A DNA stretch of 64,000 bases from positions 1,240,001-1,304,000 of the forward strand of contig NZ_BSNK01000002.1 in NCBI RefSeq assembly GCF_030159955.1, given 5' to 3'. Positions within the stretch are counted from its first letter, which is position 1. Each line of letters starts with the position of its first letter. Made by a program: the position numbers and the translations under genes. The notes under the pieces were generated by a model. The model ran no database searches, was not told where the DNA came from, and saw only the letters and a list, made by a program, of their open reading frames with translations. Of this stretch, positions 2,226 to 38,755 are shown one piece after another. The DNA comes from Algimonas ampicilliniresistens. Its GTDB lineage: Bacteria; Pseudomonadota; Alphaproteobacteria; Caulobacterales; Maricaulaceae.

Positions 2226-4040
2226 TTAGCGTTCTAGAAAGTCTGGGAGCGTCGCCTTCAGTTCGTGACCTTGTGCGGAGAGGGCTTCACGGGCTTTCAA
2301 AGCGTTCTGAACTTCCGGCATATTGATCAGCGCACTCAGCGTTTCCAAATCACGCCCAGTGCTGACTGTTCCGGAAAACAGATCGTTGAACAGTTCTTCG
2401 CGCGTCTTTGCGCGTGGGAAGCGTTTGATGCGGACGTCTGCATCTTCGTCCATCTCGGCCAAGCGCTTGGCCGCCCGCAGCGCCGTGTCAAAGCCGCCCA
2501 ACTCATCAACAAGTCCACGCTCTAAAGCTTGCTCACCTGTCCAAACTCGGCCCTCAGCGACTTCAATGACCGCTTCGCGAGGCATATTTCGTCCGTCCGC
2601 GACAATACCGACAAAGTTATTGTAGATATTGTCCATGGTGCGTTGATAGCCAGCGAGTTGCGCCTCAGTGAAAGGCTCATCTACATTATAGGCGCCGGCA
2701 TAGTCCCCGCCGACCCGGATGCCGTCGATATTGTAACCGATTTTGGCAAACGCACCTTCCAGCGCGATTTTACCGCCAAATACGCCGATGGATCCAGTAA
2801 TGGTCTGGGGTAGGGCGACGATGTGATCGGCTGGGGCGGCAATATAATAGCCGCCACTGGCCGCATATTGACCCATGCTGATAACAACAGGTTTGCCAGC
2901 GTCTTGAACACGTATCACGGCAGCCATAATCTGGTCAGAGGCGTCAGCGGAGCCGCCGCCCGAACTGATCCGGAAGACGACGGCTTTGACGTCTTCGTCA
3001 TCGATTATGGAGTCTAAGCCTGCGGCCAAAGTGTCGCCGCCCATATTCGTGGTCGGGGAGAAGATATTATCGCCACCGCCGCTTCCGGGCAGGATCGTGC
3101 CTTGGCCTTCAACGACCGCAATGACAGGTTTGCCGAAATTCCCTTTCGGTTTGTAATCAGCGATGGACTTGAAGACCGTGTCTTCGTCGCCAGCTTTTGT
3201 GGCGATCCAGTCCTTCATCTCTTCAAGATAACCGAGCTTGTCGATTAATCCGGCATCAAGAGCATCGCTCGCACTGTGAGGTGCGGTGGCCAGTAGGCGC
3301 AGAACGTCTTCACGGGGCAGATCTCTATCATCTGCGATATTATCGACCGTATTGTCGAAAATAGACGTGATCAGGCTCTCTGTCGCTTCGCGGTGTTCGG
3401 GTGTGTAGCCCTCTTCCGTATAGGTGTTGACGGCATTCTTATACGCGCCGTGACGAATGAATTGTGGCTCGGCGTCGATTTTTTCCATGACGCCGCCAAA
3501 GAACTCGGATTGTGAATAGAGGCCAGCTGTGGCCATCGACGTGCTCGCTTGCAGCCAAATTTCATCAGACGCGCTGATGGCGTGGTAGGGAATAACGGAT
3601 GTGCTGTTCAGGCCCTGGGCATGGGTCACCACGAATTTCCCGGATGCGCGGAAGTCGAGGATCGCCAGGCGGAGTTCCTCAGCGCTGGCAGGCGCAAGGC
3701 CGCCACTCTCACCGCGTATGAAGACGCCTTTGACTTGGTCATCGGTCTTGGCTCGGTCCAGAGATTGTACAATACCAACAATAGATGTGGGGCTGTCAGC
3801 GAACAGGGTTGGACCAACTGGAGCGTCGAGAATTGGCATGCGAAGGTCGATCTCAAGCACGATCGGCTTGGTGACTTTGTCTGAACCCGCAGCCATTGCT
3901 CCGATGGAGGCCAGCAACATAACCAGAAGAAAGAAGAAGACGAAAAGACCAATCACCACACTTAGGATCGTGATGAAAAATACCTTGGTCCCGCTGAGTC
4001 GTTTTTGCGGATAGGAATAGGCAGGAGAAGTGTCAGCCAC
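2226..4040 (-). CDS. sppA: Signal peptide peptidase SppA, long (67K) type
   Basis: Membrane-anchored serine protease that degrades signal peptides left after secretion. The 604 residues fit the long, two-domain SppA class. One N-terminal membrane segment (about 21-50) is followed by two tandem ClpP/crotonase-like peptidase domains. The catalytic lysine is K201, in an AYKNA context in the first domain. The nucleophile is S395, in AASGGYY in the second. This split Ser/Lys dyad matches E. coli SppA (K209/S409). The start is a GTG; an ATG four bases upstream is out of frame. The gene is monocistronic, with tRNA-Gln starting 268 bp upstream on the other strand. Confidence 0.95.
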   Translation of the reverse strand: MADTSPAYSYPQKRLSGTKVFFITILSVVIGLFVFFFLLVMLLASIGAMAAGSDKVTKPIVLEIDLRMPILDAPVGPTLFADSPTSIVGIVQSLDRAKTDDQVKGVFIRGESGGLAPASAEELRLAILDFRASGKFVVTHAQGLNSTSVIPYHAISASDEIWLQASTSMATAGLYSQSEFFGGVMEKIDAEPQFIRHGAYKNAVNTYTEEGYTPEHREATESLITSIFDNTVDNIADDRDLPREDVLRLLATAPHSASDALDAGLIDKLGYLEEMKDWIATKAGDEDTVFKSIADYKPKGNFGKPVIAVVEGQGTILPGSGGGDNIFSPTTNMGGDTLAAGLDSIIDDEDVKAVVFRISSGGGSADASDQIMAAVIRVQDAGKPVVISMGQYAASGGYYIAAPADHIVALPQTITGSIGVFGGKIALEGAFAKIGYNIDGIRVGGDYAGAYNVDEPFTEAQLAGYQRTMDNIYNNFVGIVADGRNMPREAVIEVAEGRVWTGEQALERGLVDELGGFDTALRAAKRLAEMDEDADVRIKRFPRAKTREELFNDLFSGTVSTGRDLETLSALINMPEVQNALKAREALSAQGHELKATLPDFLER

Positions 4041-4308
4041 GCATGCTCACTTTCGAAAAAGGTTGTTTCTTACTGTTTTTCGATATGTGCCACGTCGAAC
4101 GGATTAAGGAAAGAGGCGGATACAGAGCGCTTACAGGGCATGAATGATGTCGCGTGGGCGGCGTCTGATTCGCCACAGGTGATATAAGGCGTATTCCGTG
4201 TGCAATCCGTCGGATTTCGCCGTTGCCTTTTTTGATACTCGCTCATAAAAGCCGCGCTCATCACAGACGGATAGGAGTCGCGCCGCGGCTTTCTACTGTT
4301 CGGATTGA

Positions 4309-4384
4309 TGGGGTGTAGCCAAGTTGGTAAGGCAATGCTTTTTGGTAGCATGTACCGCTGGTTCGAGTCCAGCCACCCCAGCCA
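4309..4384 (+). tRNA. tRNA-Gln (anticodon TTG), CCA encoded
   Basis: Cloverleaf read by eye. Acceptor TGGGGTG (4309-4315) pairs with 4374-4380. The D arm is GCC/GGC (4318-4320 / 4331-4333). The anticodon stem ATGCT/AGCAT (4335-4339 / 4347-4351) holds the loop TTTTGGT, with anticodon TTG at 4342-4344. The T arm is GCTGG/CCAGC with loop TTCGAGT. Discriminator G4381 is followed by a genomically encoded CCA (4382-4384). It reads CAA (and CAG by wobble). Confidence 0.97.
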
Positions 4385-4455
4385 TCCTCACGCGTGACGT
4401 GGTTTCCCGCTAAAAAATTTTATGGTTTTAAGGAACCTTCCGAGCGCGGGAGTCG

Positions 4456-4485
4456 TTGCTTGACTGAACCGCGTCCGTTTACAAT
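4456..4485 (+). promoter_or_regulatory. Candidate sigma70-type promoter for the DUF3450-ExbB-TonB operon
   Basis: TTGCTT (4456-4461) and TACAAT (4480-4485) are separated by 18 bases, 180 bp before the first gene of the operon. It lies in the 283-bp gap after tRNA-Gln, where no other feature is seen. Assigned by eye only. Confidence 0.3.
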
Positions 4486-4667
4486 AAGGATGCTCTGAGC
4501 ATTCTCTTTGCGGGTGCCAAGGCAAATTTTGCCGCTCTTGTCCACGGAAAAAAACTATAAAAAACCGTTGCGAGGTGGTCGAGGTAATGATTGATTAACA
4601 AAAGTCGTCCGTGTAGGCGACCGTTCGCACGGCTCCTAAAGAAGCCGGCAATAAATGGAGGACGTGA

Positions 4668-5522
4668 GTGGTGCTAACCCTACCTGCCCGGCAGCTTGCC
4701 ATGTGCGCAGCTGCTTGTTTTGGGATCGCCCTGGGTGCGGTTCCGGCCAGTCAGGCTCAAGCCCAAGATCAATCTCAGACGACGACTTCGCTCGCGTCTC
4801 AGTATGAATCCGTCCTGAAAGAAATTTCTGATCGCCGCACCAATGTCTTGCTGCGCGAATACTATCTTACAGAACAGCAAAAAGAGATCGACTCGCTCGC
4901 TGCTCGCTTGGCTTTGGCTAACGATAGTAGTGCGAGCGAGGAGTTGCTGCCAATGGTACGCGAAATGGTGGCCGAGCTTGAAAAAGTTATGGTTGCTGAT
5001 TTGCCGTTCCGGATTGAGCGCCGTTTCGGTCTTCTCGATGATCTACGGGATGATTTGCAGGCCGAAGACGTGCTTGTGAGCGACGTTTATCGCCGCGCTT
5101 TGCAGCTTTATGGTTTTGAGGTAGCTTACGGTCTTCAGGTTGGGTCTTATTCTGGGGTCAGCCCGATTGCCGACCGGCAGGGCAACCGCTTCCAGGCCTG
5201 CATGGCGGATCCTGACTCCCCTGTCTGTGATCTGAACAAAGAACAACGTCAGGCTTTGGCCACAGGCGCTGAGATGGAAGATCTTCAATCTCAGCTTTAC
5301 GACGGCAACTATATCCACTTCGGGCGTCTGGCGCTGCTCTATCTTGAGCGTGATAGTTCCGAAGGCTACCGCTATAACGAAGCAACGAAACAGTGGGATC
5401 CGCTGTCTAACTCCGAACTTCTGGGTCTTCGCCAGAACGTCCGTATTGCGCGTGGCGAAAGTGCCATTGGAACTATGACAGCACCGATTCAAATCGGTGA
5501 GGGTGGATCTGATGCCAGCTAG
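4668..5522 (+). CDS. DUF3450-type periplasmic protein, first copy of a tandem pair
   Basis: 284 residues. The signal peptide probably ends at AQA|QDQ near residue 33. A long coiled-coil helix (about 40-105) follows, then a segment with LPFRIERR, and a small C-terminal domain with an IHFGRLALLYLE strand and a TMTAPI ending. This is the architecture of DUF3450 proteins found beside ExbB/ExbD/TonB genes, where they are thought to form a periplasmic part of the energy-transduction complex; the exact role is unknown. It carries an insertion of about 28 residues with two cysteines (around 172-195) that the next protein lacks. Start is GTG with GGAGG at 4657-4661; a second GTG directly follows. First gene of an eight-gene operon. 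Confidence 0.8.
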   Translation: MVLTLPARQLAMCAAACFGIALGAVPASQAQAQDQSQTTTSLASQYESVLKEISDRRTNVLLREYYLTEQQKEIDSLAARLALANDSSASEELLPMVREMVAELEKVMVADLPFRIERRFGLLDDLRDDLQAEDVLVSDVYRRALQLYGFEVAYGLQVGSYSGVSPIADRQGNRFQACMADPDSPVCDLNKEQRQALATGAEMEDLQSQLYDGNYIHFGRLALLYLERDSSEGYRYNEATKQWDPLSNSELLGLRQNVRIARGESAIGTMTAPIQIGEGGSDAS

Positions 5523-32355: not shown

Positions 32356-32814
32356 GTGAGTTCAGAGCCGGAATACTGGTTCTATCACCTTGAAGCCTCG
32401 ACGCTGAAAGGCGTCCTGCCTGATCTTCTGACGAAAACTCTATCTAAGGGATGGCGCGCTCTGGTGCGCTTCCCTGAAGGCACAGACCTGACAGATTGGG
32501 ACGACTATCTCTGGACCTATCAGGATCAGAGCTTCCTGCCCCATGGTCGTGAAGATGCAGGCCGCGCCGACCAACAACCCATTCTCCTAGCGAACGCAGC
32601 GACTGAAGCAGACGGGTTCGACGCCGTGTTTCTAATCGATGGGGCAGAGGTCGCGAACGTATCCGGTGTGTCGCGGATCATGGTCATGATCGACGGCCGC
32701 TCGCATGAGGCTGTGCAGCGCGAGCGAACACGTTGGAAGACGCTCAGCGATACAGGCGCAACCATGAGTTATTGGCAGCAGGGCGAACGCGGCGGTTGGG
32801 AAAAGAAGGCTTAG
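32356..32814 (+). CDS. holC: DNA polymerase III chi subunit HolC
   Basis: 152 residues from a GTG start with AAGGATAAG upstream. It has the chi fold pattern: YWFYHLEASTLKGVLPDLLTKTL at the N-terminus, WDDYLWTYQDQSFLPHG in the middle and RWKTLSDTGATMSYWQQ at the end. It links the clamp-loader complex to SSB. It is coupled to pepA (2-bp gap). The stop interlocks by four bases with the converging DUF1289 gene. Confidence 0.93.
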   Translation: MSSEPEYWFYHLEASTLKGVLPDLLTKTLSKGWRALVRFPEGTDLTDWDDYLWTYQDQSFLPHGREDAGRADQQPILLANAATEADGFDAVFLIDGAEVANVSGVSRIMVMIDGRSHEAVQRERTRWKTLSDTGATMSYWQQGERGGWEKKA

Positions 32815-33074
32815 CCGCGGTTCCGACGATTGACGCGTCGTTTTGCGCGACGTTCTTCCAGTTTTTTCTTCAATGGCGGTAACCGTGCGGGCAGCTCAGC
32901 CATAATAGCGTCGCGTTCAGTTTTGGATCGCAGCCCCCAATAGGCAATTTCGTCTGTCGTCCGGCCACAGCCAAAACAATGGCCACTCTCACGGTCCATC
33001 GAACAAATCAGCACGCAGGGGCTCTCGACGGGCTCCAGCGCAGCTATCTCTTCCTCGGTCATATCATTGGCCAT
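32811..33074 (-). CDS. DUF1289 small cysteine-rich protein
   Basis: 87 residues with the family signature ESPCVLICSMD followed by CFGCGRTTDEIAYW, giving four cysteines that may bind iron-sulfur or zinc, and a very basic tail (KKKLEERRAKRRVNRRNRG). DUF1289 proteins are widespread in Proteobacteria and uncharacterised. An in-frame ATG at 33062 is also possible. The upstream region is shared with the divergent corrinoid operon. Confidence 0.85.
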   Translation of the reverse strand: MANDMTEEEIAALEPVESPCVLICSMDRESGHCFGCGRTTDEIAYWGLRSKTERDAIMAELPARLPPLKKKLEERRAKRRVNRRNRG

Positions 33075-33102
33075 GCGGGTCTATTAGCTGTCCTTGAGTA
33101 TC

Positions 33103-33122
33103 ATATAAAGGTTTTTTTATAT
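33103..33122. promoter_or_regulatory. AT-rich inverted repeat over the corrinoid-operon promoter
   Basis: Perfect 7-bp arms ATATAAA (33103-33109) and TTTATAT (33116-33122) around six bases. The repeat lies inside a possible promoter: TTGAGT at 33094-33099 and TATATC at 33118-33123, 18-base spacer. It is placed where an operator would block transcription. From memory, SahR/SamR-type methionine regulators of Alphaproteobacteria use palindromes with ATAAAG-like halves; this link is speculative. Confidence 0.4.
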
Positions 33123-33157
33123 CGACTTCAGTGTGAGTGTCGCTTATGTGCCTCACC

Positions 33158-33844
33158 ATGAGTGAAGAGCCTGAATTGATCCTTGCCGACCTGTCCGACG
33201 ATGACCTCGTCGAACAGATGAAAGACGATCTGTATGACGGCATGGGCCCCGAGATTACAGAGGGGACAAAGATCCTGTTGGATCGCGGCTGGGACGCGAA
33301 TAGAATCCTGTCTGAAAGTCTCGTCGAAGCCATGCGGATTGTCGGTCTCGATTTCGCAGACGGCATATTGTTCGTGCCTGAAGTCTTGTCAGCAGCTAAT
33401 GCGATGAAGGGCGGCATGGAATTGCTTCGGCCGATCCTGGCCGCATCTGATACGCAAGTTTCCACCGGTCGTGTCGTGATCGGAACAGTCAAAGGCGACA
33501 TTCACGATATTGGTAAAAACTTAGTCGGCATGATGCTGGAAGGGGCCGGTTTTGAGGTCTTCGATCTTGGTATCAACACCTCACTCGACGAGTTCCTTGA
33601 AGCTATCGACAAACATGACCCGCACATCCTTGGCATGAGCGCTCTGCTGACAACAACGATGCCTTATATGGGCGTGGTCATCGAAGACCTAGAAAAGCGG
33701 AACATGCTTAAAAACCTGCCTGTGATGATCGGCGGTGCGCCTGTGAATCAAGAATTCGCTGATGCGGTCAAAGCGAACGCGTATGGCCCAGATGCGGCGA
33801 CGACAGCGGAGCTCGCTAAGACAATCGTCGGCGTCAACCGATAG
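33158..33844 (+). CDS. Cobalamin-binding corrinoid protein (MetH B12-module-like)
   Basis: 228 residues from the ATG (the frame opens at a GTG 21 bases earlier). An N-terminal helical cap domain (about 15-95, MtaC/MetH cap type) is followed by a Rossmann-like B12 domain. That domain has DIHDIGKN, with H116 as the lower cobalt ligand, then SALLTTTM (about 161-168) and GGAPVNQ, the three hallmarks of base-off B12 binding. It would shuttle a methyl group between the pterin-type methyltransferase encoded 600 bp downstream and an acceptor enzyme not in this window. First gene of a four-gene operon with gaps of 8 and 12 bp and an 8-bp overlap. Confidence 0.93.
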   Translation: MSEEPELILADLSDDDLVEQMKDDLYDGMGPEITEGTKILLDRGWDANRILSESLVEAMRIVGLDFADGILFVPEVLSAANAMKGGMELLRPILAASDTQVSTGRVVIGTVKGDIHDIGKNLVGMMLEGAGFEVFDLGINTSLDEFLEAIDKHDPHILGMSALLTTTMPYMGVVIEDLEKRNMLKNLPVMIGGAPVNQEFADAVKANAYGPDAATTAELAKTIVGVNR

Positions 33845-33852
33845 GCGCGGCG

Positions 33853-34443
33853 ATGAGCGTCCTCATCATCGCTTGTGGCGCGCTGGCGCGCGAAATCGGC
33901 GCCGTCGCCGACCAACTTCCCGCCTTTGATCTGCGCTGCGTTCCGGCCACGCTGCATAACCGTCCTGAACAGATCGTCCCGGCGATTGAAACCGTTCTGG
34001 ACGATACAGGCGGCCTGTATGATCGCACGATCCTCGCCTTTGGTGATTGCGGGACAGGCGGGGCATTGGACCGCCTGTGCGATGCGCGTGGTTTGCAGCG
34101 TTTGCCCGGTGCACATTGCTACGCCTTTTTCGCTGGCCCACCCGTCTTTGATACGATGATGGGTGAAGAGCTCGGGACGTTTTTCTTGACAGATTTCTTG
34201 GCCCGCCAATTTGACTCGATGGTCATGCGTCCGCTCGGCCTCGACCGGAAGCCAGAATTGCGCGATATGTATTTCGGACATTACAAACGTCTGGTTTTCA
34301 TGTCGCAAACGCAGGACCCAGATCTTTTGGCAAAGGCCGTATCGGCTGCACGGACACTAGGTCTGCAATTCGAACACCGCCCCACCGGGCTTGCCCCATT
34401 TGCGCGCGATCTCGCACGCCTTTCCGCCCATTTGGCTGCATAG
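33853..34443 (+). CDS. DUF1638 protein, partner of the corrinoid methyl-transfer system
   Basis: 196 residues, soluble. Family motifs are LIIACGALAREI (C8), LAFGDCGTGGALD (C66), HCYAFFAG (C89) and LTDFLARQFD, with RDMYFGHYKRLVFM later. The conserved Cys, His and Asp residues suggest metal or cofactor binding. DUF1638 genes cluster with corrinoid methyltransferases. As I recall, mutant-fitness work in Phaeobacter inhibens tied one to methionine synthesis through a split MetH. It sits between the B12 protein and the methyltransferase, 8 and 12 bp away, supporting a role in the same reaction or in cofactor loading. Confidence 0.85.
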   Translation: MSVLIIACGALAREIGAVADQLPAFDLRCVPATLHNRPEQIVPAIETVLDDTGGLYDRTILAFGDCGTGGALDRLCDARGLQRLPGAHCYAFFAGPPVFDTMMGEELGTFFLTDFLARQFDSMVMRPLGLDRKPELRDMYFGHYKRLVFMSQTQDPDLLAKAVSAARTLGLQFEHRPTGLAPFARDLARLSAHLAA

Positions 34444-34455
34444 AAGGAGCCCGCA

Positions 34456-35358
34456 ATGGCCCGCACAGTTCTCACCTCGCCGACCAAAGAAGTCGTTATC
34501 GGGTTTGACCAGCCCTTCGTAATGATTGGCGAACGCATCAATCCGACGAACCGGCCGAAATTCTCCAAAGAGTTGGGCGCTGGGAACTACTGGCGGGTGA
34601 AGAAGGAAGCTGAAGCGCAGATCGCGGCAGGCGCGCAAGTGCTCGATGTGAATGTTGGTGTGCCGCTGACAGACGAAGCCAAAATCATGGAAGAAGTGAT
34701 TACCATGTTACAGACTGAAGTCGAGGCGCCGCTCGTGATCGACAGCTCAGTCATGGCTGCCTTGGAGAGCGGAATTGCCGCTTATAAGGGTCGCCCTCTG
34801 ATCAATTCAACCACAGCCGAGGAAGAGGTGATGGAACGGATTCTGCCGCTCGTCGCCAAATATGATTGCGCCGTCGTCGCCATTTCCAATGATGATACGG
34901 GCATTAGCGAAGATCCTGATGTCCGGTTCGAGGTCGCTAAGCGTATCGTCAATCGCGCTTCTGATTATGGCATTAAGCGTGAAGATATTGTCGTTGATCC
35001 GCTCGTTATGCCGATTGGCGCGGTCAATAGTGCGGGCAAGGATGTGTTCAAGCTGGTCGGACGTTTGCGTCACGAACTGGGCGTGAACACGACTTGCGGC
35101 GCGTCCAATGTCGCCTTTGGTCTGCCCAATCGCCACGCCGTGCATAATGCATTTCTGCCGATGTTGCAGGCCGCAGGCATGACCAGCGCGATCCTCAACG
35201 TCTATGATGAGGGCCTCGTCCCCGCCATTAAGGCTGGCGATATGCTGGCCGGGAATGACCCGGATTGCGCCAATTGGATCGCTCGGAGTCGACCTAAGCC
35301 CGTCGCTGGCGAAGGGGGACGCCGTGGCGGCGGCGGACGTCGTGGACGACGTGGCTAG
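34456..35358 (+). CDS. Methyltetrahydrofolate:corrinoid methyltransferase (pterin-binding, MetH-module/AcsE-like)
   Basis: 300 residues. A TIM barrel of the pterin-binding family with FVMIGERINPTNRP (about 21-34), VLDVNVGVPL, PLVIDSSVMAALE and LINSTTAEEE, then VVDPLVMPIG. These are the motifs of the MetH folate module and of AcsE/MtgA enzymes that pass the methyl of 5-methyl-THF to cob(I)alamin, or the reverse. After the barrel the protein ends in a Gly/Arg tail (about 284-300, with RRGGGGRRGRRG), which standard AcsE lacks. GGAG precedes the ATG. The stop overlaps the likely GTG start of the activator gene by eight bases. Confidence 0.92.
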   Translation: MARTVLTSPTKEVVIGFDQPFVMIGERINPTNRPKFSKELGAGNYWRVKKEAEAQIAAGAQVLDVNVGVPLTDEAKIMEEVITMLQTEVEAPLVIDSSVMAALESGIAAYKGRPLINSTTAEEEVMERILPLVAKYDCAVVAISNDDTGISEDPDVRFEVAKRIVNRASDYGIKREDIVVDPLVMPIGAVNSAGKDVFKLVGRLRHELGVNTTCGASNVAFGLPNRHAVHNAFLPMLQAAGMTSAILNVYDEGLVPAIKAGDMLAGNDPDCANWIARSRPKPVAGEGGRRGGGGRRGRRG

Positions 35359-37273
35359 CCATAAAATCATATTCACCCCGTCGGGTGTTCAGACGACGGG
35401 TGAGGCGGGTGAGACCGTCTATGAGGTCGCGCTACGATCTGGCGTGGACATCAAGTCGGTCTGTGGCGGGCAGGGGATTTGCAAGCGCTGCCAATGTTCG
35501 CTCCAGACGGGCAACCACTCTAAATTTGGCCTGACGGTCGCCGAGGACGCGCTGTTCAAACTGCGCCCGGCTGAGAAGAAAGCGATTCATGACGGCGATA
35601 TGGCGGAGGGGCTACGGCTCTCCTGCCGCGCCAAGATCATGGGCGACGTCGTTATCGACATTCCGCCGCATGCACGCCACACGCAAAGCGCCATTCGTAA
35701 AGCGGCCTTTGCTCTATCCGGTCCTGTCGATCCTCCGATCCGTCTGCATATGGTCAAATTGCCTGAGCCGACCTTGCATGACCATCTTTCAGATACGGAA
35801 AGCTTGATCGAACAGCTCGGCGGCGATCTGTCTGTTGCGCCGTGCGCCACGCTAAAAATTCAGCCATTACTGGCAGACCATGACCGCACGGTCATCGCCG
35901 TCATTCGTGACGAGGCCGAGGTGATTGATCTTTGGTCCCCGGATCGGGAGGCGCTTTACGGTGCTGCCATCGACATTGGTTCAACCTCCGTTGCGCTTTA
36001 TCTCTATAGTCTGCGAACGGGCGCGCTGGTGCATCAAGCCTCCGCCATGAACCCGCAAATTCGTTTCGGCGAAGATGTGATGAGCCGCGTCAGTTACGTC
36101 ATGATGAATAAGGGTGGGCAGGAAAAACTGTCTGGAGCCATTCAGGGACAGCTGCGCGATATGCTCGCGGAGGCACGCGAGACTGTTGGGGCGGAGGCAG
36201 ATCAGCTGCTAGAGTTGGTCTGTGTCGGTAACCCGATCATGCACCATATTCTGATCGGCGTGGATCCGACGCCGCTCGGTCAATCGCCGTTCACGCTCGC
36301 CGTCAAAGACTGGTTCGACCTACCGGGCGACCAGTTAGATCTGGGCCTGGCGCAACAAGCACGGGTTGCATTGCTGCCGCTCATTGGGGGGCATGTTGGC
36401 GCGGATACTGCCGCTGCCTATCTGACCCAAATGGACCGTATGGACGGACGATCTGTGCTCTTGGTCGACATTGGCACCAACGCGGAAATCGTGCTCAGCC
36501 ATGAGGGCAAGATTGCGGCGGCCAGTTCCCCAACGGGACCAGCGCTAGAAGGCGCGGAAATCAGCTGCGGCGTGCGCGCCTGCGAAGGCGCGATTGAACG
36601 CCTACGCATCGATCCGCTCACATACGATTGCAAAGTGAAAATCATTGGCCATGATGAGTGGTTGACCGAAGACACAATCGGTGACCACTCCGTGCCGGGC
36701 CTGTGCGGCTCGGCCATTTTTGAAGTCATGGTGGAACTCGCCCGCGCGGGGTTGCTCGATCGCTCAGGTCTGTTCCGCCCGAATATTGCGCCGGATCGGT
36801 TTAGCTTGGACGGCAAAATCTCAGTCTATCGGTTGATCGGCGACATCACGCTCAAGCAAACCGATATTCGAGCGGTACAGCTGGCCAAGGCTGCGCTGAT
36901 GGCGGGTGCGCGCCTCGTCGCGGAAGAACTGGGTTGTGAGATCTTTGATGAGGTCCTGCTCGCCGGGGCATTCGGGACTCATCTTGATCCGGCCTATGTC
37001 GCCGAAATCGGGATCATCCCGCATAATGGGGCCGCGACGATCAAGGCTGTCGGCAATGCCGCCGGCATGGGCGCGGCCATGTGTCTTACGGATAAAAGCC
37101 AGCGCGACCGCATCCGCACCGCCGTCCGTGATATCGTCAAGATCGAAACCGCACTCGAACCGCGTTTCCAAACCTATTTCATCGAAGCGATGGCGTTCCC
37201 GAGTGCGCCCGTTGGCGAGGCATCGGCTAAGGGACGCAGAGGCGGTCGCGGCGGTGGGCGTCGCGGACGTTAG
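35351..37273 (+). CDS. RamA-like ATP-dependent reductive activator of corrinoid protein (2Fe-2S + ASKHA, DUF4445)
   Basis: About 640 residues if translation starts at the GTG overlapping the upstream stop; the frame opens at 35204, but that part lies over the methyltransferase gene. The N-terminal plant-type ferredoxin domain has C38, C44, C47 and C92 (SVCGGQGICKRC...LSC). The ASKHA ATPase part has AAIDIGSTSVALYLYS and LLVDIGTNAEIVL, with LVCVGNPIMHHILIG between. Such proteins re-reduce inactive cob(II)alamin in corrinoid systems. Like its neighbour, it ends in a Gly/Arg tail (GRRGGRGGGRRGR). The stop interlocks with the convergent lipoprotein gene. Confidence 0.9.
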   Translation: MASHKIIFTPSGVQTTGEAGETVYEVALRSGVDIKSVCGGQGICKRCQCSLQTGNHSKFGLTVAEDALFKLRPAEKKAIHDGDMAEGLRLSCRAKIMGDVVIDIPPHARHTQSAIRKAAFALSGPVDPPIRLHMVKLPEPTLHDHLSDTESLIEQLGGDLSVAPCATLKIQPLLADHDRTVIAVIRDEAEVIDLWSPDREALYGAAIDIGSTSVALYLYSLRTGALVHQASAMNPQIRFGEDVMSRVSYVMMNKGGQEKLSGAIQGQLRDMLAEARETVGAEADQLLELVCVGNPIMHHILIGVDPTPLGQSPFTLAVKDWFDLPGDQLDLGLAQQARVALLPLIGGHVGADTAAAYLTQMDRMDGRSVLLVDIGTNAEIVLSHEGKIAAASSPTGPALEGAEISCGVRACEGAIERLRIDPLTYDCKVKIIGHDEWLTEDTIGDHSVPGLCGSAIFEVMVELARAGLLDRSGLFRPNIAPDRFSLDGKISVYRLIGDITLKQTDIRAVQLAKAALMAGARLVAEELGCEIFDEVLLAGAFGTHLDPAYVAEIGIIPHNGAATIKAVGNAAGMGAAMCLTDKSQRDRIRTAVRDIVKIETALEPRFQTYFIEAMAFPSAPVGEASAKGRRGGRGGGRRGR

Positions 37274-38223
37274 GGCGTGACCGCGATACTCATTATGTTT
37301 TTGCTATTGCGCGGTGCGAGCCAAGCCGACACGCGCGTTTCATTCAGCGCCACCATGTCCTCATCGATATAGAGTTCGAATTGGACGGACTCAGGACCCA
37401 TCAGCTGAATGTTCAGAAGGTCTGGTAGGTCACCGCCGCTGATTTCGGACGCACCGGTCAACTGCCCGGTCACGAAACGCCAACCATTCCCAATCTCAAG
37501 ATCGTCAGTAGTCTCTGCGTCTGCGGGATGGATATCCATAAGGTCCCATTCGGTCTGATTTATATATTCCACAGTGACTGTATGCCCGGTCAGCTCATAG
37601 ACAGGTGCGCCCGTAATCCTTGCGCCTTCAACTATGAGAGAGAACGTGGTGGGCTCTGTCTGTTCATCGAGTCTAATATCGATAGTAAACATCGGATAGG
37701 CACCGTCCTCGACACGGGTGACGACCCCAGTGTCCACAATGATCTCTCCGCCCAATTCGTCGGAGGCATGATCGGGAATTTCATCGAATTGAGGCTCGGA
37801 CGATGTGTCTCTGTACATTACGAAGCCAGTTTGATCGGTTAGTATCATTGCGGCAATGTGATCATAGGTCAGATGATATTCCGCTGAGGCGTCCGTCCAA
37901 GACTGTACAGCCTCTGCACTAACGTCGCGGGAGAGCATTATACTCTTATCGGTCTCTGGCAGAAACACCTCTGCCTTATCGTCTTGAGTGAGTGCAAAGG
38001 CGCTGTAATTTGAATCGCCGCTGCCCTGATGGGTCAACTCTGTTCCGGCTTCCCAGAGCCGAATGCACTCTTTGCGAAGTTGAGACCATTGATAGCCTGC
38101 CGATGGAATACAGCCATGATTATCGCGATCGGCACCAACGATTTCATCCGGCAAAACCTCGCCTTCATTGGCGGAGCAAGCCACCAGAAGAAGTGTCAGA
38201 CAGGCTGCAAGACAGTGCTTCAT
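37270..38223 (-). CDS. Lipoprotein of unknown function with GC..SAGY.WS motif
   Basis: 317 residues. Lipoprotein signal with lipobox LLVAC (Cys 16). The mature N-terminal domain starts HGCIPSAGYQWSQLRKECIRLWE, followed by AEVFLPETDKSIMLSR. This cysteine-containing pattern recurs in envelope lipoproteins of several phyla, whose function I do not know. The C-terminal half (about 160-317) is beta-rich and acidic, with VTRVEDGAYPMFTIDI and YELTGHTVTVEY strands. AGGATAA supports the ATG. It ends on the corrinoid activator's stop (4-bp overlap) and starts 26 bp after the next secreted protein gene, so the two may be cotranscribed. Confidence 0.7.
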   Translation of the reverse strand: MKHCLAACLTLLLVACSANEGEVLPDEIVGADRDNHGCIPSAGYQWSQLRKECIRLWEAGTELTHQGSGDSNYSAFALTQDDKAEVFLPETDKSIMLSRDVSAEAVQSWTDASAEYHLTYDHIAAMILTDQTGFVMYRDTSSEPQFDEIPDHASDELGGEIIVDTGVVTRVEDGAYPMFTIDIRLDEQTEPTTFSLIVEGARITGAPVYELTGHTVTVEYINQTEWDLMDIHPADAETTDDLEIGNGWRFVTGQLTGASEISGGDLPDLLNIQLMGPESVQFELYIDEDMVALNETRVSAWLAPRNSKNIMSIAVTP

Positions 38224-38248: not shown

Positions 38249-38755
38249 TCAGTAACTGAAAAAGCTGTTCAGAACGTCGATGGCTTCGTCATCATTGCCA
38301 TCCTCGAAACCAATCTCGACGACGAAATTTGTATCTGATTCTGTGTCCAGCATAAGTGCGATGATCATGAAATCGGGCGCGTCGAGTTCGCTTGGGGCGA
38401 CGATCAGGTAGAAACCGTTAAAGCTGTCGATCTCGATATAATCGCCATCAACCTCGCTATCATCAAACAAGTATAGCTCAGCGGCCATCTCTAGAGCGGC
38501 TTCGCCTAGATTATCTTCGTCGACACTATCATCGCTCCAGGGTGTGATATTGATCGATATTTCACCTCCGCTTGTCGCAGCTGTGAAGGATTCGAGATCA
38601 CTATCATCGATGACCATGTCCGATGCGACGGAAAAGCCAATACCGTACTCTTCCCAGACATAAGTGTCCTGAGCAAGTGCAGCTGTGGCCGATATGGTTA
38701 GGCAGATGAAGCCGATTAAGAAACGCTGAAGATAACGATTGATTGCATATGTCAT
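38249..38755 (-). CDS. Small acidic secreted protein, unknown function
   Basis: 168 residues with a signal peptide ending at ALAQ (about 29). The mature part is very acidic with many Asp and no cysteines. It contains WEEYGIGFSVASD and ISINITPWSDD, reminiscent of small periplasmic beta-proteins (PsbP/Mog1-like shape is only a guess), and DEAIDVLNSFFSY at the end. GGGGAG precedes the ATG. It is upstream of the lipoprotein gene in the same direction. Confidence 0.65.
   Translation of the reverse strand: MTYAINRYLQRFLIGFICLTISATAALAQDTYVWEEYGIGFSVASDMVIDDSDLESFTAATSGGEISINITPWSDDSVDEDNLGEAALEMAAELYLFDDSEVDGDYIEIDSFNGFYLIVAPSELDAPDFMIIALMLDTESDTNFVVEIGFEDGNDDEAIDVLNSFFSY

Follow-up and report, generated by a model that had tools for sequence, protein, structure and literature searches.

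The stretch of DNA considered here, a 64,000-nt segment of Algimonas ampicilliniresistens that we call the window, contains an operon of four co-directional genes on the forward strand (33158-37273) coding for the methyl carrier MtgC, a DUF1638 protein, the methyltransferase MtgD and a RACo/RamA-like activator (Table 1). A preliminary description had taken these genes for a four-gene corrinoid cassette, and this is confirmed by Pfam domains that match all four products and by gene spacings of 8 bp, 12 bp and then an 8-bp overlap. The order and strand of the four genes are the same in the close relatives L032, L033, L034 and L056 (L-numbers designate loci, and G-numbers genomes, that were compared), indicating that the arrangement is more than chance. 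The same description had called the last product a 2Fe-2S/ASKHA activator. Its 2Fe-2S part is not found in Pfam at E ≤ 0.001 but does align with the start of RACo (3zyy) and with ferredoxin 1i7h (E = 1.1e-5). Residues 1-618 of the activator align to residues 1-621 of 3zyy (E = 1.8e-61), which has 10 residues more, and the pairing of residue 1 with residue 1 supports the GTG start at 35351.

Table 1. Genes and protein segments of the operon, in window coordinates.
Feature	Position	Strand	Evidence
mtgC, free-standing cobalamin-binding methyl carrier, 228 aa	33158..33844	+	PF02607 B12-binding_2, 50.5 bits; PF02310 B12-binding, 90 bits; DIHDIGKN motif
Acidic arm at the MtgC N-terminus (residues 1-18), where the basic tails are proposed to dock	33158..33211	+	Charge, predicted structure, alignment
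DUF1638 protein, 196 aa, presumed to partner MtgC in handling cobalamin	33853..34443	+	PF07796, 94.4 bits (gathering threshold 27)
mtgD, methyltetrahydrofolate:corrinoid methyltransferase, 300 aa	34456..35358	+	Pterin_bind PF00809, 89.8 bits; NCBIfam PRK07535, 331.9 bits (cut-off 259)
Arg/Gly-rich C-terminal tail of MtgD	35308..35355	+	15/16 last residues R or G
ramA-like 2Fe-2S/ASKHA reductive corrinoid activator, 640 aa	35351..37273	+	RACo linker, middle and C-terminal domains (PF17650, PF17651, PF14574; 46.4, 147.3, 232.4 bits)
Arg/Gly-rich C-terminal tail of activator	37223..37270	+	Last 16 residues: R+K+G 14, net +7

The proposal that this operon serves methionine synthesis, with the homocysteine-binding module encoded elsewhere, is supported by the content of the genome (3.26 Mb, 99.65% complete). 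Exactly one protein has the homocysteine domain PF02574, and this protein is the stand-alone MtgE of 350 aa, whose unlinked gene (G000:C2:530838-531887) lies ~741 kb from the operon. The genome has no match to PF02965, the MetH activation domain, for which the same search was positive in 7 of 14 control genomes, and none to PF01717, the MetE catalytic domain, which was found in 10 of the 14 controls (the N-terminal MetE domain PF08267 was not searched). The MttB-type methyltransferase family PF06253 is likewise without a match, with one of the 14 controls positive, in a search that did not include the MtbB and MtmB families. Thus the survey for metH and metE that the preliminary description had advised returned neither PF02965 nor PF01717 together with a lone PF02574 protein, and the linked MttB-type enzyme that it had named as contrary evidence is not seen as a PF06253 match. 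The B12, pterin and homocysteine modules sit on three separate proteins, and no single chain in this genome carries the folate, B12 and activation domains by which a classical MetH is recognized. The operon plus the unlinked mtgE is thus very probably the only recognizable methionine synthase of this cell, in which the modules of MetH occur as separate proteins.

A lone homocysteine domain is not diagnostic alone, since MetH in genomes of the family Maricaulaceae is itself two-part. Across 19 genomes of the genus, the homocysteine-domain matches fall into two kinds, with 7 (our own included) at 74-100% identity to our protein and 12 at 28-31%, and a PF02965 protein of ~880-920 aa, which completes a two-part MetH, accompanies the second kind in 11 of its 12 genomes (G052 is the exception). 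MtgE of the window genome is assigned to the split type because it is 74-87% identical to its counterparts in same-genus genomes that carry mtgC and only 28-31% identical to the MetH type; MtgC, for its part, shares 74-95% identity with its counterparts in seven further genomes of this genus.

The same division is evident in a family sample of 138 genomes, for which the p-values given ignore kinship. DUF1638 occurs in 31 of these genomes (30 above cut-off), PF02965 in 105 and PF06253 in 25. DUF1638 and PF02965 exclude each other beyond chance (12 genomes with both, 19 with DUF1638 only, 93 with PF02965 only, 14 with neither; p = 2.6e-7), and DUF1638 accompanies MttB (23 with both, 8 with DUF1638 only, 2 with MttB only, 105 with neither; p = 2.3e-17). 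The association with MttB bears on a different reading, in which MtgC and MtgD form a catabolic cassette that removes a methyl group from glycine betaine or some other methylated compound and transfers it to tetrahydrofolate. This reading draws on the MttB-type protein seen in 23 of the 31 DUF1638-bearing genomes, on the folate one-carbon genes that relatives carry within the cluster (formate-tetrahydrofolate ligase, DUF5981 and MTHFR in L037) and on the account of Ruegeria pomeroyi, where the same MtgC and MtgD are described as serving both jobs (PMC12478193). Against it, MttB is absent from 8 DUF1638 genomes, 7 of which belong to this genus, namely our own, G044, G046, G048, G051, G058 and G059, and the window operon has only 12 bp between DUF1638 and mtgD where the sister lineages L037 and L007 hold MTHFR-type genes (MtbB and MtmB were not searched). 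Furthermore, our own genome, G046, G048, G051 and G059 have neither MttB nor the MetH activation domain, leaving the cassette as the sole cobalamin-dependent candidate tested there. Single absences in G048, G051, G058 and G114 are weak because these genomes are only 70-85% complete; G046 (99% complete) and G059 (100%) are unaffected by incompleteness. A purely catabolic role is thus very improbable for the window operon. As a separate observation, G044 and G058, both of the same genus, have mtgC and DUF1638 as well as PF02965. The DUF1638 protein of G058 is only 49% identical to ours, a level nearer to that of other genera, while its MtgC is 74% identical, and an exchange between lineages may account for this divergence.

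A second reading concerns MtgE, which could be a stand-alone betaine:homocysteine methyltransferase (BHMT) making methionine without B12, with the operon serving some other purpose. It is suggested by the NCBIfam model PRK07534, which labels MtgE (L001:1423-2475) a betaine--homocysteine S-methyltransferase (455.7 bits; cut-off 338). Among solved proteins, however, the best relative of MtgE is the cobalamin-dependent enzyme 1q7m (E = 4.5e-37), which we take to be from T. maritima, ahead of BHMT 1lt7 (E = 2.1e-12). The treatment of these families in PMC12478193 also speaks against a BHMT, as it reports the betaine-binding residues to be kept in the SAR11-type Bhmt only and the S. meliloti 'bhmt' to be homologous to mtgE; by that account the PRK07534 name is probably misleading. 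We therefore regard a B12-independent MtgE as highly unlikely. Beside mtgE, in locus L213, there is a cobalamin riboswitch (4615-4823, reverse strand) with a TonB-dependent receptor gene (2616-4556, reverse strand), divergent from mtgE, which links vitamin uptake with the homocysteine subunit. This riboswitch is not taken as a control of mtgE because it is on the other strand, ahead of the receptor gene.

The separate proteins of this system carry oppositely charged chain ends. MtgC starts with MSEEPELILADLSDDDLVEQMKDDLYDG and has a net charge of -10 over residues 1-28. Its predicted structure has residues 1-13 ahead of helix 1 (residues 14-26), with a predicted local distance difference test score (pLDDT) below 50 for residues 1-4. 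The solved free corrinoid proteins 1y80, 4jgi, 3ezx and 7xcn are N-terminally shorter than MtgC, by offsets of 14, 11, 12 and 10 residues, respectively, and MtaC (2i2x) is the opposite case with a longer N-terminus. The partner proteins have basic ends: MtgD, whose alignment to solved homologues stops at residue 279, continues into a tail ending ...GEGGRRGGGGRRGRRG, the activator ends ...SAKGRRGGRGGGRRGR, and MtgE ends ...GRRGASRRRR.

To quantitate these ends we read the frames from the domain match in loci L002-L111 (n = 110), counted distinct protein ends and scored a tail where at least 5 of the last 12 residues were Arg or Lys. Rows were dropped for early-ending frames or contig ends (16 and 1 for MtgD, 24 and 10 for the activator), along with 2 for MtgC and 1 for DUF1638, and identical ends were then merged. 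By this measure 41/45 MtgD, 22/24 activator and 18/18 MtgE ends are tailed, as compared with 1/72 for MtgC, 4/101 for DUF1638 (leaving 97/101 distinct cases with no basic end) and 22/442 for other open reading frames (ORFs) of these loci, a background rate that is raised by likely false frames among the mechanically called ORFs. The exceptions L059, L071 and L097 (MtgD) and L032 (activator) have their arginines slightly further inward, and only L110 is without a basic cluster, in MtgD and activator alike. An additional 10/10 readable MtgD proteins from Rhodobacterales, Rhizobiales and other loci (L253-L262) are also tailed; this count leaves out L263 and L268, whose frames are broken, as well as L264-L267, which are MetH-type matches or fragments. 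An earlier count under a stricter rule (at least 5 Arg and net charge of at least +5 in the last 16 residues, greedy ORFs) gave 35/38 for MtgD, 13/22 for the activator, 8/10 for MtgE and 18/442 for other ORFs, and was redone in frame because truncated and misread ORFs were mixed in.

MtgB, where it occurs, is basic at the other end of the chain, with a net charge of at least +5 within up to the first 40 residues in 29/29 readable loci. These come from 30 family loci with 33 matches, which form groups ~67%, 51% and 38% identical to one query, and some share a genome. By eye, 19 of 20 further MtgB loci also have a basic N-terminus, and the remaining one, L105, is a doubtful match. The solved structure 4yyc, presumably from S. 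meliloti, includes this basic stretch, and the alignments of 2qne (presumably Desulfitobacterium) and 9yce start after it. On the acidic side, 99 readable MtgC starts out of 104 in L002-L111 have a net charge of -8 to -15, with the other 5 lacking a readable N-terminus.

Arms and tails also occur together. We scored each locus for a tail (at least 5 Arg or Lys in the best 12-residue stretch of the last 22 residues, required of each MtgD, activator and MtgE that could be read) and for an arm (net charge of -4 or lower ahead of the residue aligned with Gln20). Of the 120 loci, 62 allowed arm and tail to be scored; 61 of these have both, 1 has neither and none is mixed, and removing loci with repeated partner ends left 57, 1 and 0. 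A same-genus comparison by eye found a tail in 7/7 MtgE-type loci and in 0/11 readable MetH-type homocysteine subunits (the twelfth, L122, is unreadable). In the phylum of G138, clusters L250-L252 have an acidic MtgC start, basic clusters near the MtgD and activator ends and a basic MtgB start, and in the complete cluster L247 the arm is missing from MtgC and the tails from both MtgD and activator. In G138 itself, the MtgD and activator of L110 both end without a tail, and an MtgC-like protein encoded on a separate contig (L131) starts short, with a net charge of -3. Tail composition varies from Arg/Gly in our own genus to mostly Arg or mixed Arg/Lys, and is Lys-rich in the Myxococcota loci L045, L047 and L057; such conservation of charge while residues change is as expected of a disordered tether. 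Together, the loci from Pseudomonadota, from Myxococcota metagenome-assembled genomes (MAGs) and from the Actinomycete-type phylum of G138 suggest that arm and tails are gained or lost as a set.

What these ends bind is a matter of two readings. Arg/Gly-rich tails are common nucleic-acid binders, and the variable composition seen here would suit any polyanion, so that the tails might instead have nucleic acid, ribosomes, membrane or some other polyanion as their target while the MtgC arm has an unrelated role such as solubility. We consider this rather unlikely for several reasons. The tails are found on the proteins that must touch the MtgC cofactor and at either chain end (N-terminal in MtgB, C-terminal in the others), they are not a feature of DUF1638, no readable homocysteine subunit of a two-part MetH, which carries out the same chemistry, has one, and in L247 arm and tails are missing together. 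The reading we put forward, that the basic tails dock on the acidic MtgC arm, is evenly balanced on these sequence patterns.

With regard to DUF1638, the preliminary description had pointed to Cys8, Cys66 and Cys89 as conserved, and these three residues are indeed identical in 59/59 aligned sequences (the window protein and 58 relatives), as are Glu14, His35, His88 and Asp114. In total 15 polar residues are at least 95% conserved among the 59, including C8, C66, the H88-C89 pair, H35, E14 and D114. The nearest named relatives are from Algimonas arctica (81% identity), other Algimonas and a Hellea MAG. An AlphaFold2 model of the protein (mean pLDDT 93.9) has an alpha/beta fold, for which comparison with solved structures gave no significant match. 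Its commonest neighbor is mtgC, which 103 of 110 loci carry on the same strand, 95 of them within 400 bp. Among the seven loci without an mtgC match at the threshold used, L016, L079 and L103 have the gene ≤240 bp from a contig end, L058 and L061 have mtgE directly upstream, and L084 and L110 have neither. Within the limited flanks of 80 named loci with DUF1638, MtgC is found in 74, MtgD in 56, the activator in 52 and MtgE in 18.

Two roles can be weighed for this protein. Price et al. (PMC5764234) place DUF1638 with reactivation, as its fitness pattern and its presence are reported there to track the RamA-like gene, and the three invariant cysteines would suit an electron-transfer or reactivation partner of that protein. 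However, DUF1638 neighbors mtgC more often than the activator, it lacks the basic tail typical of the activator, and in the phylum of G138 it is present in 79 of 396 genomes, with 28 of the best 30 loci (L214-L243) showing no MtgC match inside ~1.5-kb flanks. A role as electron-transfer partner is therefore possible but somewhat doubtful. Ahead of it we tentatively put a role as a cobalamin loader or rescuer, which these sequence comparisons leave a little short of probable. Genomes of the G138 phylum have up to 3 DUF1638 matches each, and the family as a whole has wider roles. The same-genus genome G049 has mtgC, mtgD, mtgB and mtgE, and DUF1638 was not found there by hidden Markov model search. 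Its cluster has the order mtgC-DUF5981-metF-mtgD-mtgB (L212:5102-11941; G049:C69) with a 3-bp gap at the position of DUF1638, and beside it are two large ORFs (L212:206-4562) that by eye, with no search made, resemble dimethylglycine/sarcosine oxidase subunits. The suggestion of the preliminary description that DUF1638 might be a fourth subunit finds no support in G049, which keeps the other components without it.

In cobalamin enzymes of the MetH type one carrier visits several active sites in turn, and the MetH linkers hold these sites together. In the mechanism we propose for the split enzyme, MtgD would move the methyl group from 5-methyltetrahydrofolate onto the cob(I)alamin of MtgC, and methyl-MtgC would then deliver it to the homocysteine bound by MtgE. 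Once the cofactor becomes oxidized to cob(II)alamin, the RamA/RACo-like protein would re-reduce it using ATP and its 2Fe-2S cluster, and DUF1638 would act on MtgC or on its cofactor, most likely in cobalamin loading or rescue. Because the parts are not fused, our proposal is that the shared MtgC keeps MtgD, MtgE and the activator bound through its acidic N-terminal arm, on which their basic C-terminal tails would dock. The tails would thereby substitute for the covalent linkers of MetH, with exchangeable electrostatic contacts tethering separate enzymes to the carrier. In a more general form, a charge code would assemble the aerobic split corrinoid methyltransferases, with an acidic arm on MtgC and a basic tail on MtgB (N-terminal), MtgD, MtgE and the activator (C-terminal); this code would replace the MetH linkers, leave substrate enzymes competing for one carrier and be gained or lost as a set, a proposition for and against which we see roughly equal weight.

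Overall, a split methionine synthase, with tails docking on the MtgC arm and DUF1638 acting on MtgC or its cofactor, is likely the best joint explanation, and the interpretation is supported by genome tests that, as run, came out in its favor. Several points weigh against it. The absence of MetE is read from PF01717, with PF08267 not searched. DUF1638 has no match in G049, where the system is otherwise kept, or in the MttB-bearing G041 (75% complete), indicating that it is not strictly required. The docking itself is proposed from charge and co-occurrence only, and such tails could bind other polyanions. The tailed examples are related, so that the counts are phylogenetically non-independent, and the tail-less sets are few (L247, L110 with L131 where the start is still -3, and fragments). 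The activator of L252 has its basic cluster ~17 residues before the end, and that of the divergent L249, with no MtgC match in view, ends in a short basic cluster (YMRKWEKRRK). Finally, an alternative rule (net charge of at least +5 with at least 3 Arg in the last 16 residues) lowers the count to 18/24 for the activator and 14/18 for MtgE, with MtgD at 41/45 and background at 24/442, a reduction that is partly due to acidic residues just ahead of the tail falling inside the 16-residue span.

Surrounding the operon, the upstream neighbors are the housekeeping genes for leucyl aminopeptidase (M17) and DNA polymerase III chi. Downstream on the opposite strand are two genes (37270-38223 and 38249-38755) whose products appear by eye to be exported and have no Pfam match; an ORF downstream on that strand also resembles a lipoprotein by eye and is likewise without a Pfam match. 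Riboswitch control of the operon was examined with Rfam on the whole window and with a permissive run on 32600-33400, which returned only a tRNA at 4309 besides two matches far under their gathering scores. A scan of 32750-37400 gave 1 promoter-like and 5 terminator-like sites, within the spread of shuffled sequences and thus no excess.

The methionine synthesis and the reactivation step ascribed to this operon rest on what has been published for relatives. The Phaeobacter precedent given in the preliminary description, a split MetH with a RamA-like and a DUF1638 protein, is real. In the account of Price 2018 (PMC5764234), the genes for the three split modules, the RamA-like protein and DUF1638 of P. 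inhibens are important for growth without methionine, in defined medium, and the mutants are rescued by methionine; the passages of that paper on these genes make no specific proposal for DUF1638. Mausz 2025 (PMC12478193) likewise describes R. pomeroyi mtgC and mtgD mutants as methionine auxotrophs. Given these precedents, the operon is a member of the published split methionine synthase type and not new in kind. The arm and tail pattern is absent from the literature searched (covering few subscription journals and no supplements), including the consulted parts of PMC5764234, PMC12478193 and the MttB-MttC structure paper PMC9842639, and in the main text of PMC12478193 a word search for arginine, tails or electrostatics came back empty. 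It is a classic question how the MetH modules gain access to a single cofactor one after the other, and docking tails in a split enzyme would open it to simple, separable tests. If the docking is correct, a basic tail would also mark, by sequence alone, which marine MttB-type proteins belong to the MtgC hub, and a cassette with a single substrate branch offers a clean background for finding the role of DUF1638.

Among other known systems, proteins of solved structure from related corrinoid systems share homologous domains with this one (MtgB 2qne/9yce, corrinoid protein 1y80, MeTr 2yck) and are presumably from anaerobes; 1y80 starts 14 residues later than MtgC, and 2yck stops 2 residues past the aligned domain. 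The activator aligns with RACo 3zyy over nearly its full length and differs in its extra basic tail, scoring under the NCBIfam cut-offs for both AcsV (306.8 of 800) and RamA (70.6 of 500). The two-part MetH of the sister genomes G045, G050 and G060 has a separate homocysteine subunit in common with the split enzyme, but this subunit has no basic tail and is partnered by a PF02965 part of ~880-910 aa. The closest parallels are with Phaeobacter inhibens, which is reported to have the same five gene types and no PF02965 (PGA1_c13370, c13350, c16040, RamA-like c15200 and DUF1638 c13340; PMC5764234); four of the five are in one operon in the window genome, whereas by locus numbers three are close together and two elsewhere in P. 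inhibens. MtgC, MtgD, MtgE, RamA and DUF1638 are also shared with the MtgBCDE system described for Ruegeria pomeroyi and other marine bacteria (PMC12478193), from which our genome differs in having no MtgB (PF06253), so that only the methionine branch can run. In comparison with these systems, the operon is a published pathway in another lineage, stripped to its methionine branch, to which the charged arm and tails add the part that we did not find in print.

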